From Microcaldota archaeon (lineage in GTDB: Archaea > Micrarchaeota > Micrarchaeia > Norongarragalinales > UBA97), in contig JACQBR010000018.1 of assembly GCA_016194335.1 (NCBI GenBank), forward strand, positions 1-36,514: a DNA stretch of 36,514 nucleotides, in the 5' to 3' direction. The notes below the pieces were generated by a model. The model did not search any database and was not told the DNA's origin. It saw nothing but the letters and a program-made list of their open reading frames with translations. Below, one piece after another: positions 8,318-18,199 of the stretch. The translations under genes were made by a program, and so were the position numbers. Within the stretch, counting starts at the first letter, position 1. Each line of letters begins with the position of its first letter.

Positions 8318-8583
8318 ATTGCGGCCTTTAGTAGCGGTTGGCTGAACAGCTCGCCCTTGCGGGCTTGCTGATTACACCTCCGCCCTATTGAACGGATCTG
8401 CTAGTCCGCGGCCTAAGCCGTCTCGTTTTGGGGGTTGCTTCGTCCTTAGTTAGACCTCAAAGAAGCGTTGATGTTTTTCGCCTCTTGCGAGTATGCCTTC
8501 AGGACTTATCAATCTAGCGCGTAGCTACGCGGCTCGCGTTGACACGACCGCAATACCAGTGGCGCCGGTTCCCGGTTCCTCTC

Positions 8584-8740
8584 TTAAGCCGAAGCCGTTG
8601 GCACGATTTAGCCTTATCAGTAAAGAGAAATTCTTGCGCGCTTGTTGACTGCTTTTTCATAGCAAACGCCAGGAAAGCATTGCTTTAAGCGCCATCCAGC
8701 GCGTGAGAATCCCATACTTGGAATGTGCCAAGGGCTCCGT
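8584..8740 (-). other. 23S intron in the sarcin-ricin loop (about L2658)
   Basis: The universal AGTACGAGAGGAACC is split as AGTAC (8741-8745) and GAGAGGAACC (ending 8583) by 157 nt. Intron ends pair (CGGAGCC/GGCTTCG, then TTGGCAC/GTGCCAA) and exon TAAG pairs with CTTA to make a BHB-like fold. A strict BHB cut would drop two conserved bases, so ends are uncertain by 2 nt. No ORF inside. Confidence 0.8.
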
Positions 8741-8744
8741 GTAC

Positions 8745-9443
8745 TTAGAGAACCTTACCCTCAGACGGCCAGACACTTCTAGGAGATGCCACCGAACTGT
8801 CTTTGTCGCCTTTCTTAGCAGACTTAAGCAAATTGAATCTCAAAACCTTTTCGGGATGAGATGAATCAAAGCAATTATAGGAATTAAGAACTTGAGCGCT
8901 TCCGTGCACAATCAACGCGTACATTTCGGTAGATGCGCCTTTCTTTACGTACGGCCCGCAAACGCGGCCGCAGCGAATCCCAAAATCCAGAAGCACTTGC
9001 CTTATTTCTTCAAGGACAGCCTTGTTTGCTTGAGCCAAATATATCCCGATGTCCTTCTCTGCGGGTTTCGAACACTTTTCGAGGGAATTTACGCTTCCCT
9101 CGGCGTCGAAAAACCCGCGGACATAGGCTTTTTTCAATCTAGGCAAGCCGCACACGATCCACGAAGGCATCTTCCAAGTCGCTTGATCTCCGGTGTATTC
9201 GGAGATTTGCGTCAATTCTCGGTAGATTTCCTTCGAGGTGATGCTTAAGCACCAAACCTCGTGTCTCGCGTCCAAGTAAAAACCCGCTTTCTTGCCAAAA
9301 TTATCCTCAATAATCTTCTCGAGGAATTCAAGCCAAAGCCTGCTTTTTTGGTAGAATCTTATTCGGTAAATCCCCTCTGACGAAACTTCAGAAAAATTTC
9401 CGTCCCTCAAGGCGCCGATAAGATACGCAATTTCTTCCTTCAT
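8745..9443 (-). CDS. LAGLIDADG homing endonuclease in 23S intron L2597
   Basis: 232 residues with two LAGLIDADG motifs (AYLIGALRDGNFS at residues 6-18; AYVRGFFDAEGSVN about 110-123), the usual monomeric form that cuts intron-less 23S alleles. The ORF runs past the predicted 3' splice site (8803) and its last 19 residues are encoded by 23S exon DNA, stopping next to the sarcin-ricin intron. It can therefore be made in full only from unspliced RNA. Sense orientation relative to 23S. Confidence 0.9.
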   Translation of the reverse strand: MKEEIAYLIGALRDGNFSEVSSEGIYRIRFYQKSRLWLEFLEKIIEDNFGKKAGFYLDARHEVWCLSITSKEIYRELTQISEYTGDQATWKMPSWIVCGLPRLKKAYVRGFFDAEGSVNSLEKCSKPAEKDIGIYLAQANKAVLEEIRQVLLDFGIRCGRVCGPYVKKGASTEMYALIVHGSAQVLNSYNCFDSSHPEKVLRFNLLKSAKKGDKDSSVASPRSVWPSEGKVL

Positions 9444-9533
9444 GAACCTAAGAAATCGCGCGTGTTTTTAAGCTTGGCGGGCGTGGCTTGCCGGCCATCC
9501 TAAAATTTGCTCGTAAGGTCTGCTAAGAGAGGT
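8803..9533 (-). other. 23S BHB intron near A2602 (about L2597)
   Basis: 731 nt. Canonical BHB: central helix GTCG/CGAC, three-base bulges CGA and AAA, inner helix CTCTTAGCAGAC/GTCTGCTAAGA-type. Cutting after the second base of each bulge gives AGAACGTCGCG+AGACAGTTC, matching the conserved 23S. Carries the homing endonuclease 8745-9443. Confidence 0.92.
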
Positions 9534-9546
9534 CGCGACGTTCTGA

Positions 9547-9587
9547 TTTTGGGATCCGTTAGATGTAAAAATCAATCTAATGGACCT
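9547..9587 (-). other. 23S microintron beside U2585
   Basis: 41 nt. Central helix TTGG/CCAA, bulges GTA and AAT, inner helix GGTCCATTAGAT/ATCTAACGGATC. BHB cutting gives GTTAGTTGGGT+TCAGAACGTCG, matching the conserved GAGCUGGGUUUAGAACG with the junction between 2584 and 2585. Confidence 0.85.
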
Positions 9588-9607
9588 ACCCAACTAACGT
9601 GGGTCTT

Positions 9608-9648
9608 TCGTTATTTCCCCAAGATGCAATCTTGCGTCCTGAGGGAAC
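9608..9648 (-). other. 23S microintron near 2565
   Basis: About 41 nt. Central helix GTTA/TAAC, bulges AAG and GAA, inner stem TTCCC/GGGAA with CAAGA/TCTTG. The strict product is two bases longer than expected, so the exact ends are uncertain, but the region has no room for an insertion in a working peptidyl-transferase centre. Confidence 0.7.
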
Positions 9649-9736
9649 TTTAACGGATGAACAACCCGACCCTTGGCGGCTCCTGCACCGCCAGGATGAC
9701 CCGAGCCGATAGCGATGTATCAAACCGCGTCGTCGA

Positions 9737-9939
9737 TTAGTCCCTTTTAGGAAATAATCTTTCATTCGATGCGCCGATACCAGTTTATCCACGTTTTGTT
9801 GAAAGTCCCGAAATTCGGTTCCTCCATTGTGTATAGCCTTACTACAAATGTTTTGCAGTAAAGAAGCTCTTTTTATTGAAAGAACTTTACGGGATTTTCG
9901 AAGACGTTAAAACTGGCCGGCGCGTATTTCCCGAAAGAA
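9737..9939 (-). other. 23S BHB intron in helix 89 (about L2476)
   Basis: 203 nt, no ORF. Central helix AGTT/GACT, bulges CAT and AAT, 14-bp inner helix TCTTTCGGGAAATA/TATTTCCTAAAAGG with two mismatches. Joined product GAGAGTTCA+TCGACGACG corresponds to conserved AGAGUUCAUAUCGACGG, though two bases shorter. Confidence 0.8.
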
Positions 9940-10167
9940 TGAACTCTCGGACGCGACGAACCTGTTACCCCCAGGGTAGCTTGTCTGTCAGAAACGGCCC
10001 TCATTAATAGGGACACGTTTGTTCGTTAAGCCCCGCTTTCGCGCCTGCATCCCATTTTGTTAAGGATACAGTCAGTCGCACATTTGTCTTTGACCCTCTA
10101 CAGACGACTTCTGACCGTCTTGAGTGCAACTTTGGGCGCCTTTGTTTTCTTATCGAAGGCGTGCCGC

Positions 10168-16534: not shown

Positions 16535-16584
16535 TAGAATTGATGACACGCGATTACTAGGGATTCCAACTTCATGGGGACGAG

Positions 16585-16620
16585 CTCTGGAAACTGATAA
16601 CAAAAACGGTTAACAGTCTT
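16585..16620 (-). other. 16S microintron in helix 42 (about S1320)
   Basis: 36 nt. Central helix CTGG/CCAG, bulges AAA and AGC, inner helix AGACTGTTAAC/GTTATCAGTTT. Product GGGGGCTGGAA+CTCGTCCCC matches the archaeal GGGCTGCAACTCGCCC in length and form. Confidence 0.85.
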
Positions 16621-16992
16621 TTCCAGCCCCCAATCCGTACTGGGGCGGAGTTTGGGCGATTGCCTTCACCTTTCGGCGTCGGAACGCATTGTCTCCGCCA
16701 TTGTATGCCACGTGTGGCCCCAGAGATTCAGGCCATACGGACCTAGCGTCGCCACTTCCTTCCTCCAACTTAGCGCTGGCAGTCTCCAACGAGTGCTGCC
16801 CGAATTTCTTCGAGCGTGGCAACGTTGGACGGTGATCTCGCTCGTTGCAAGACTTAACTTGACACCTCACGGCACGAGCTGACGCTGGCCATGCAACACT
16901 TCTCGGCTTGTTGGCTAAGATCTTTAGTCTGAGCTTCATACTGCCGTCTCTCTGGGTGAGTTTCCCGGCGTTGAGTCCAATTGAACCGCAGC

Positions 16993-17090
16993 ATGTGGAA
17001 CGCCAAACCTTGGATAAGAAATATACATGCCTTCCAATAGCGAAACCTCTCGGTAGACTATTGGAATTGGCAAATCAAGGTTTGGTGTTA
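16993..17090 (-). other. 16S BHB intron at about S946
   Basis: 98 nt. Central helix GTGG/CCAC, bulges ATT and ATG, inner helix AACACCAAACCTTG/CAAGGTTTGGCGTT; a second stem TTCCAATAG/CTATTGGAA. Product GGTGGAT+GCTGCGGTTCAATTGG is the expected conserved sequence. Confidence 0.9.
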
Positions 17091-17106
17091 ATCCACCCCT
17101 TGTGGT

Positions 17107-17164
17107 ATGGGATAAAGTTCTCACTAAATGAAAAAATTTAGAAAATATCGTGTGGGAACTTTAT
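17107..17164 (-). other. 16S microintron at about S932
   Basis: 58 nt. Central helix GGGA/TCCC, bulges GCA and ATA, inner TAAAGTTC/GAACTTTA. Product GGGGGAGC+ACCACAAGGGG is an exact archaeal consensus. Confidence 0.9.
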
Positions 17165-17300
17165 GCTCCCCCGCCAATTCCTTTAAGTTTCAGTCTTGCG
17201 ACCGTACTCCCCAGGTAGCGGACTTAACGCTTTCGCTGCGGCACTGCAGTCACTCGCGGTGGCTGCAACGCCTAGTCCGCATCATTTACTGCTAGGACTA

Positions 17301-17335
17301 TTTCCGGCACAACCAATGATGCACTGGCTGTTGCT
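17301..17335 (-). other. 16S microintron at about S800
   Basis: About 35 nt with stem GCAACAGCCA/TGGTTGTGC (one bulge). Removal gives ACCCGAG+TAGTCC, matching ACCCGGGTAGTCC. It lies only 7 nt from the next intron. Confidence 0.75.
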
Positions 17336-17342
17336 CTCGGGT

Positions 17343-17450
17343 GATTAGTGAGATAGAAGCTCATTTGTTGTCGTTCTTTCCGCCAGTAGTTTTTTCGTGC
17401 AATTGGCGGGAAGAATTCATCTCGTTTTTTTTTTTGAGAGCTTCCCTCAT
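17343..17450 (-). other. 16S BHB intron at S793
   Basis: 108 nt. Central helix TTAG/CTAA, bulges ATA and TCA, inner helix with TGAG/CTCA and GAAGCTC/GAGCTTC. Product GGATTAGAT+ACCCGAG is the universal 790-loop sequence. Confidence 0.87.
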
Positions 17451-18199
17451 ATCTAATCCGATTTGCTACCCTAGCCTTCGCATCTCACCGTCGGACATGT
17501 TTTGGCCAAGCGCTTTCGCCACCGATGGTCCTGCAAGGATTAGAGGATTTTACTCCTACCCCTACAGTACCCTTGGCCTCCCCCATTCCCAAGACCGGTA
17601 GTATTCCCCGCGCGCCCACCGATTAGGTCGGTGGATTTCACGGGGAACTGGCCGATCAGGCTACATGCGTTTTAAACCCAATATTCGTGGGCACCACTCG
17701 GGCTACCTGTGTTACCGCGGCGGCTGGCACAGGATTTACCCACCCCTTATTCAGCCAGCTTTTCAAGCTGACTAAAAGCCGACCGTAAGGTCGGCACTCA
17801 GAGTACCCTCGTCACGCTTTCGCGCATTGCGAAGGTTGCGCGACTGCTGCATCCCGTAGGACTCGGGCCCTTGTCTCAGTGCCCGTCTGGGGGCTCCTAC
17901 TCCCATAGCCCCTACTGATTATCGCCTTGGTGAGCCGTTACCTCGCCAACAAGCTAATCAGCCGCAGAGCAATTCTTCGGCGGTACGCCTGCAATTTGGC
18001 GCCCTTTTGGCAAAGCCAACGTTCCAGTTGCGCTTTGCTATGTGGAATTCTCGTCACTTTCGCGACGATGTTCCCCTCCGGAGATCATGTTCTCTACGTG
18101 TTACTCAGCCGTCCGCCAAGAACCGAAGCCGGTTCTTCAGACTTGCATGTCTTAGTCGCACTCTGATAGCAGTGCCCTCCAGCAGGATCAACTGGAGTC

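Follow-up and report, generated by a model that had tools for sequence, protein, structure and literature searches.

The window analyzed here, a 36,514-base contig (C21), belongs to a Micrarchaeota genome of 1,179,936 bases in 28 contigs with a completeness of 85.4%. It carries the only rRNA operon found in this genome, on the minus strand (18198..8305), and the 16S and 23S rRNA genes of this operon are interrupted by 21 inserts. As judged from sequence features, the inserts are very probably introns that are spliced out, 19 of the bulge-helix-bulge (BHB) type and 2 of group I. Of these, nine are in the 16S rRNA gene (eight BHB, one group I) and 12 in the 23S rRNA gene (11 BHB, one group I); if the insertion in the spacer tRNA-Ala gene is counted as well, there are 22 inserts with a total length of 4924 nt.

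In a BHB motif, exon 1 ends in a 4-nt strand of the central helix (H) followed by two bulge bases, the intron ends in the partner of H followed by two bulge bases, and the two intron ends pair as an inner helix. For group I introns, U precedes the intron and G is its last base. The rRNA genes and their predicted introns are listed below; "after N" refers to E. coli numbering, and H values give the pairs formed in the 4-nt central helix.

15316..18198, minus strand: 16S rRNA gene, 9 introns, 1488 nt once spliced
17343..17450, minus strand: S1a, BHB, 108 nt, after 793; H 4/4, inner helix 6; followed by the 7-nt micro-exon ACCCGAG
17301..17335, minus strand: S1b, BHB-like, 35 nt, after 800; H 3/4, inner helix 12
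17107..17164, minus strand: S2, BHB, 58 nt, after 931; H 4/4
16993..17090, minus strand: S3, BHB, 98 nt, after 947; H 4/4
16585..16620, minus strand: S4, BHB, 36 nt, after 1319; H 4/4
16443..16540, minus strand: S5, BHB, 98 nt, after 1363; H 4/4, inner helix 12, outer helix 10; followed by the 8-nt micro-exon TCGCGCGG
15840..16434, minus strand: S6, BHB, 595 nt, after 1371; H 4/4; LAGLIDADG_3 frame; followed by the 4-nt micro-exon TGAA
15797..15835, minus strand: S7, BHB, 39 nt, after 1375; H 2/4 in the precursor, 4/4 with S6 removed
15358..15685, minus strand: S8, group I, SSU/1498, 328 nt; IB4.19 homology
8305..14716 (ends approximate, especially ~8305), minus strand: 23S rRNA gene, 12 introns, 2940 nt once spliced
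13670..13753, minus strand: L1, BHB, 84 nt, after ~910; H 4/4, inner helix 4; mirror-repeat core
13464..13511, minus strand: L2, BHB, 48 nt, after 1062; H 4/4
12251..12919, minus strand: L3, BHB, 669 nt, after 1608; LAGLIDADG_3 ORF 12872..12156
11234..11945, minus strand: L4, group I, LSU/1923, 712 nt; IB4.18 homology; LAGLIDADG_1 ORF 11826..11266
11059..11097, minus strand: L5, BHB, 39 nt, after 2060; H 4/4, inner helix 3
10168..10871, minus strand: L6, BHB, 704 nt, after 2252; LAGLIDADG_3 ORF on the opposite strand, 10239..10922
9738..9938, minus strand: L7, BHB, 201 nt, after 2477; H 4/4; site with an insert in 12 listed relatives' operons
9607..9649, minus strand: L8, BHB, 43 nt, after 2565; H 4/4
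9547..9587, minus strand: L9, BHB, 41 nt, after 2584; H 4/4
8803..9533, minus strand: L10, BHB, 731 nt, after 2597; LAGLIDADG_3 ORF 9443..8745
8584..8740, minus strand: L11, BHB, 157 nt, after 2658; H 4/4
8450..8492, minus strand: L12, BHB, 43 nt, after 2754; H 4/4

Insert borders were determined with a splice-aware dynamic programme against the 16S and 23S rRNA genes of relatives and E. coli rrnB. An identical set of 16S inserts was obtained with seven archaeal references, and the borders agreed within 6 or 7 bases; the references L021 and L024 stop before the insert after 1498, which is therefore not seen with them. For 23S rRNA, the same 12 inserts were found with the references L046 and L045. 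With L050, L1 was split in two and one extra insert appeared at the 3' end, and with L051, L3 was split in three and one extra insert appeared at the 5' end. E. coli rrnB was too distant to serve as a reference for several inserts. Rfam models matched archaeal SSU at 18198..16495 and LSU at 14713..9560, both on the minus strand, a group I intron at 15695..15367, and a tRNA at 15130..15056.

Removal of the inserts at the refined borders gives a 16S rRNA retaining 554 of 554 invariant columns, defined as identical in 30 other operons (gaps allowed in at most two) and in E. coli. With naive borders, 551 of 554 are retained, and the last three are recovered through micro-exons. The spliced 23S rRNA retains 775 of the 785 columns that are invariant in 17 relatives' genes and E. 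coli. The inserts break conserved sequence; examples are those after E. coli 16S positions 1363, 1371, and 1375 and 23S positions 2252 and 2658, the latter two of which we take to lie in the P-loop and the sarcin-ricin loop, respectively.

The original prediction for this DNA had described two kinds of insert in an rRNA operon at 8318-18199, and the alignment to relatives' rRNA bears this out; its division into two group I introns with all others of the BHB type holds for the 21 rRNA introns. The counts had to be raised from seven to nine in 16S rRNA, where two supposed single inserts are pairs (S1a/S1b and S6/S7), and from nine to 12 in 23S rRNA, with the spacer tRNA-Ala insertion in addition. 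The expected restored length of about 1.49 kb agrees with the spliced 16S rRNA, but the 3.1 kb expected for 23S rRNA does not agree with the 2940 nt obtained. Placement of the inserts in variable expansion regions was not seen, conserved sequence being interrupted instead. The suggested Rfam check was informative in part: the SSU match stops too early, and among the group I introns only that at SSU/1498 scored above the cut-off.

Base complementarity matched the BHB rule closely. The central helix was complete (H 4/4) as transcribed in 17 of the 19 rRNA BHB introns, the exceptions being S1b and S7. In a random control with the same lengths, H 4/4 occurred at 451 of 20,000 sites, of which 57 also had an inner helix of 4 or more pairs.

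Both group I introns fit the U/G rule (S8, T/AAAC..CGTG/A; L4, T/CAAC..TTTG/C). S8 scored 57.2 bits with RF00028 (cut-off 50) and aligned to the published intron IB4.19 in blocks (83% identity over 120 nt, 96% over 47 nt, and 88% over 32 nt); L4 showed 73% identity to IB4.18 across 693 columns. According to intron coordinates, contig C56 (13,829 bases) of the same-family genome G003 is MNVH01000001, the source of both published introns; Table 1 of Nawrocki, Jones and Eddy 2018 (PMC6125680) gives IB4.18 and IB4.19 from MNVH01000001 (CG1_02_55_22). By sequence comparison, S8 and L4 are IB4-type group I introns homologous to the published ones at the same sites, and they should self-splice. No ORF of 80 aa inside S8 was present in the ORF list of the window.

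Micro-exons and the predicted splicing order

Closely spaced introns leave micro-exons of 4, 7, and 8 nt, the longest of which (TCGCGCGG) separates S5 and S6. The micro-exons of 4 and 7 nt carry the invariant bases G1373, C797, and G800. A single intron after 793 was rejected, the consensus exon ACCCGAG lying inside the insert; likewise, a single intron after 1371 cannot restore the consensus, and the missing exon TGAA lies inside that insert. Of two possible placements of ACCCGAG, one passed the BHB test, and none of 500 shuffled insert bodies did so. For the S6/S7 split, a stricter pass mark was used, and it was reached by one of 63 placements of TGAA and by none of 1000 shuffles. A scan for hidden micro-exons in the other introns revealed none, but its design could not recover the two known ones either, so this result says little.

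The S6/S7 pair implies an order of splicing. The exon strand of the S7 central helix is GGUG, of which GG lies upstream of S6 and UG downstream. In the precursor, the bases at this place are AUUG, and only two of four pairs can form; all four form upon excision of S6. Since the S7 BHB is complete only after S6 excision, splicing of S6 before S7 is predicted: S7 would be recognized only once S6 is out, as joining of the exons across S6 creates GGUG. In partition-function folds with 30-nt flanks, the pairing probability of the S7 central helix rose from 0.00 to 0.96 on removal of S6. Two other folds point the other way, with values of 0.22 for 15-nt flanks and 0.16 for 30-nt flanks if S5 is also removed. 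The sequence argument for the order is thus firm, and the folding support is mixed. The outer helix of S6 has seven pairs with S5 present and three without it, which is only a hint that S6 is removed before S5.

The same region could be read as one 634-nt intron, with loss of the exon base G1373 and no splicing order, and the alignment of such a single intron is short by just one base. The base in question is, however, invariant across the 30 other operons (gaps in at most two allowed) and E. coli. The best-scoring one-intron candidates combine H 3/4 and 0-1 inner-helix pairs, and H is 2/4 at the natural border; H 4/4 with four pairs is attained only at borders shifted by 12, which breaks the exon. 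The split, on the contrary, gives 4/4 for S6 and 4/4 for S7 after S6 removal, a result matched by none of 1000 shuffles. One intron in place of S6 and S7 is therefore very unlikely.

Splicing enzymes, related operons, and alternative explanations

The genome contains a frame with two endonuclease-domain matches, residues 11-389 of 389 of which match residues 13-387 of PDB 4fz2 (E 9.6e-124), presumably the ARMAN-2 splicing endonuclease. By this similarity, the genome encodes a single-chain ARMAN-type (epsilon2) splicing endonuclease; PMC12397907 describes the epsilon2 enzyme of ARMAN-2 as acting on a broad range of substrates. A gene for RtcB is also present (E 2.2e-172). The BHB introns would be cut by the ARMAN-type tRNA splicing endonuclease and the ends joined by RtcB. 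The need for two splicing systems per ribosome, put forward in the original prediction, is supported by the 19 BHB and 2 group I introns predicted here and by the endonuclease and RtcB genes.

Pfam searches identified LAGLIDADG_3 domains in L3, L6, L10, and S6 and LAGLIDADG_1 in L4. By eye, the S6 frame (ORF 16481..15978) looks truncated and the other four look intact; intact and decayed frames fit a spread by homing followed by decay. The L6 frame (10239-10922, plus strand) is antisense to its host intron and extends across the 5' splice site into the exon, and the frames of L3 (12156-12872) and L10 (8745-9443), both on the minus strand, extend past the intron 3' ends into the rRNA exon. Antisense homing genes are known from introns of myxomycete rDNA (PMC3679873).

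For comparison, 60 genomes, among them that of the window, were searched, with an SSU match in 47 and an LSU match in 40, and the alignment used for the window was applied to 48 16S and 40 23S pieces. Most 16S pieces (39 of 48) had 0-2 inserts of at least 25 nt. A working list of 178 inserts was compiled from 25 16S and 25 23S loci chosen for having inserts, without 23S rows near gene ends and in the variable stretch 520-565. Within this list, 107 of 178 inserts have H of at least 3 with an inner helix of at least 5, and the richest entries are G006:C63 with 35 inserts, G027 with 18 (16S partial), and G047 with 16. The first of them, operon L069 (JACRGE010000087, 1482-9974), has about 35 rRNA inserts, 13 in 16S and 22 in 23S, a count that omits two rows judged to be artefacts, one at position 18 and the other a 20-nt insert at 548. 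With border shifts allowed and a few mismatches to the unshifted join, H is 4/4 in 25 of the 35 inserts and 3/4 in 10; two inserts have no inner helix. The insert density in the window, which had been called remarkable, is thus high, yet not the highest among the relatives examined. The L069 bin also contains a second, more distant operon with inserts (L087, G006:C77; 68-73% identity to the reference), and one of the two operons may be foreign to the bin (contamination).

An insert occurs in at least one listed relative at 15 of the 21 window rRNA sites (within one base, wider at the two group I sites). Similarity of inserts at the same site was clear in several cases: 947 (S3 vs G006:C63, z 6.8), 1498 (G027, z 11.8), and 2658 (L11 vs G001, z 8.1). 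Among 60 unrelated pairs, the 95% value of z was 2.8 and the highest was 3.6. Many shared sites gave low z.

Several observations count against splicing of all 21 inserts as proposed. L4 scored 16.8 bits (E 0.11) with RF00028 in a narrow search, under the cut-off of 50. S1b has three of four central pairs, and the inner helix of L5 consists of three. Free folding by partition function (30-nt flanks) gave the central helix a mean pair probability of at least 0.45 in 11 of 20 inserts and a lower one in nine (tRNA insertion included); as support, this is weaker than the complementarity count. The gain in invariant 16S columns, from 551 to 554, is partly by construction, as micro-exons were sought with the relatives' consensus, and the BHB fit is for this reason the independent part of the micro-exon evidence. 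Ten of the 785 invariant 23S columns differ, and the operon comes from a metagenome assembly. Excision, ligation, self-splicing, and homing are predictions from the DNA sequence.

The operon could also be a decaying or chimeric copy, a pseudogene or an assembly error, with another intact operon supplying the ribosomes. Given 85.4% completeness in 28 contigs, such an operon could be missing from the assembly. This reading is nevertheless highly improbable: only one operon was found, its 16S rRNA has every invariant column after splicing, and the relative with about 35 inserts retains 552 of 554 in 16S and 781 of 785 in 23S, which suggests selection on operons of this kind. Alternatively, the inserts could be excised and the exons left unjoined, giving fragmented rRNA as known for bacteria with intervening sequences. 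This is extremely improbable, since the inserts break conserved sequence, an RtcB gene is present, and exons of only 4 and 7 nt would hardly stay in position if they were not ligated. Splicing with exon joining remains the preferred explanation.

If spliced as predicted, each ribosome would depend on 19 splicing events catalysed by protein and 2 by ribozyme, in an organism with a genome of ~1.2 Mb. The operon opens a test of ordered BHB splicing, via S7, and a test of how archaeal introns multiply, by homing or by copy-in of short repeats. Moreover, the 16S rRNA gene is 2.9 kb long, and 16S surveys could therefore miss or mis-measure such organisms.

Comparison with published systems

BHB and group I introns together in one archaeal rRNA gene were reported by Nawrocki, Jones and Eddy 2018 (PMC6125680). 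That system comes from the same phylum and includes a same-family genome with homologous introns at the same sites, SSU/1498 and LSU/1923. That paper lists 39 group I introns, with no more than three on any contig of its Table 1, and BHB introns are drawn for five sequences, whereas the window has 21 predicted rRNA introns in one operon, plus micro-exons. Among the open-licence papers listed by literature searches, judged mostly from the listings, no other paper on Micrarchaeota rRNA introns was seen.

The 16S introns of Thermoproteales described by Jay and Inskeep 2015 (PMC4496867) also include BHB motifs, LAGLIDADG genes, and short hairpin introns, and adjacent introns there are likewise 7 or 8 nucleotides apart. 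The eight 16S BHB loci of the window (793, 800, 931, 947, 1319, 1363, 1371, 1375) are absent from the 13 loci given in that paper. A 2010 study, as cited in PMC4033280, found similar BHB introns in many host genes and read them as gain by transposition; here, in another phylum, one repeat with a mirror purine stem is shared by rRNA introns and spacers and, judging from excision tests, also by tRNA genes. At least 20 introns per rRNA primary transcript are likewise described for the nuclear rDNA of Diderma niveum (PMC3679873), a eukaryote whose introns are all of group I. The rRNA insertion sequences of CPR bacteria (PMC11270868) also comprise many LAGLIDADG inserts, up to 16 per gene (at least 100 bp), but these are bacterial, and the term "BHB" is not used in the main text of that report. 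New in the present operons is the combination of intron density, micro-exons of 4, 7, and 8 nt, the predicted S6-S7 order, and a shared repeat family.

The spacer tRNA-Ala and the mirror-repeat family

The spacer between the rRNA genes contains two further features.

15055..15184, minus strand: tRNA-Ala(UGC), D-loop region interrupted by an insertion; one excision that fits well is 15165..15109 (57 nt)
14974..15048, minus strand: spacer mirror-repeat core, not an intron; CTTTTCTTT..AAAGAAAAG-CGTTGACG-GAAAAGAAA

ARAGORN found no spacer tRNA in the intact window and reported tRNA-Ala(tgc) once 15165..15109 was removed. With introns allowed, it described the unspliced stretch as tRNA-Ala with the anticodon CGC, which was taken as spurious. 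The acceptor stem pairs better, by eye, with the 5' half at 15184. The insertion has H 4/4 and an inner helix of 2, and nine of the 12 listed tRNA excisions have H 4/4. An insertion in the spacer tRNA-Ala is therefore likely, and it is a candidate BHB intron with candidate borders. On the opposite side, the Rfam tRNA model fits 15130..15056 without excision (51.1 bits), and 294 of 1620 tested excisions gave tRNA-Ala(tgc), so the borders are not unique.

In L069, one similarity cluster takes 14 of the 32 short introns, and 29 of 496 pairs reach z of at least 5, as against 2 of 115 within-genome pairs elsewhere. These introns share a core composed of a pyrimidine stem, the complementary purine stem, a linker, and a mirror copy of the purine stem. 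The linker is 8 nt long in 10 of 13 cores (e.g., CCTCAACT and CCCTTGGG) and 4, 6, or 14 nt in the others. Among the 178 inserts of the working list, 25 contain such a core, including 14 from L069; 20 shuffles gave 2.65 on average and 5 at most. In the window, L1 has such a core with 6-nt stems (CTTTTC..GAAAAG-CGTTCACG-GAAAAG). The window's own short introns show no mutual similarity (none of 120 pairs at z of at least 5), and the idea of copy-in therefore rests on L069, apart from L1.

The L069 intron at 16S position 694 (2527-2644) and a spacer repeat 3' of tRNA-Ala are the same at 107 of 109 bases, which implies copying between them in either direction. The tRNA-Ala of L069 has a T-loop insertion of the same repeat kind. 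The pattern with the TCAAC linker gave 27 matches in 13 of the 60 genomes compared with 9 for the reversed pattern; the pattern CGTYSACG, with 18 matches in 10 of 60 genomes and 15 for its reverse, showed no real enrichment by itself. Cores with the linker CGTTGACG have three matches in the window's own genome: window 14974-15048, G000:C8:79926, and G000:C18:77057.

Removal of a core produced a tRNA with the join inside and H 4/4 at 7 of 30 tested places versus 1 of 45 control places, and the inner helices at those tRNA places had 0 to 12 pairs. Core removal gives tRNA-Ala in L151 (G017), tRNA-Val in L126 (G028), and tRNA-Cys in L118 (G039), with joins after tRNA nt 38, 17, and 56, respectively; in the G017 tRNA-Ala, the join falls in the anticodon loop.

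The core architecture resembles class II triplex repeats, but the cores fall outside the ITxF definition given in PMC4666352 (stems of 6-15 nt, both loops of 1-6 nt), the second loop being mostly 8 nt. Because this loop exceeds the ITxF limits, they are not classed as intrastrand class II triplex repeats. The Hoyne definition cited in that paper is perfect stems of more than 7 nt, loops of 0-10 nt, and the order Y stem, R stem, mirror R stem. Several L069 cores fit it (stem 9, loops 3-7 and 8), and it is missed by window L1, with its stem of 6, and by the core in the window spacer, whose first loop is long. Since purine-motif triplexes cannot form in RNA according to PMC4666352, no RNA-triplex stability is claimed for the mirror stems.

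A tentative explanation, which we consider possible rather than probable, is that Micrarchaeota have dispersed short mirror-repeat elements that become BHB introns in stable RNA genes, similarly to eukaryotic introners. Such elements would move among tRNA genes, rRNA genes, and spacers without homing endonucleases, and with an ARMAN-type endonuclease that accepts loose BHBs the cell could tolerate them. Many insertions would make rRNA splicing an ordered programme, with certain introns recognizable only once others have been removed. Under this explanation, the last six bases of the intron would also have to fit every new exon.

Elsewhere in the window, at 35704-36192 on the minus strand, an ORF of 162 aa has a Pfam match to Y1_Tnp (IS200-like transposase) with E 8.2e-13.

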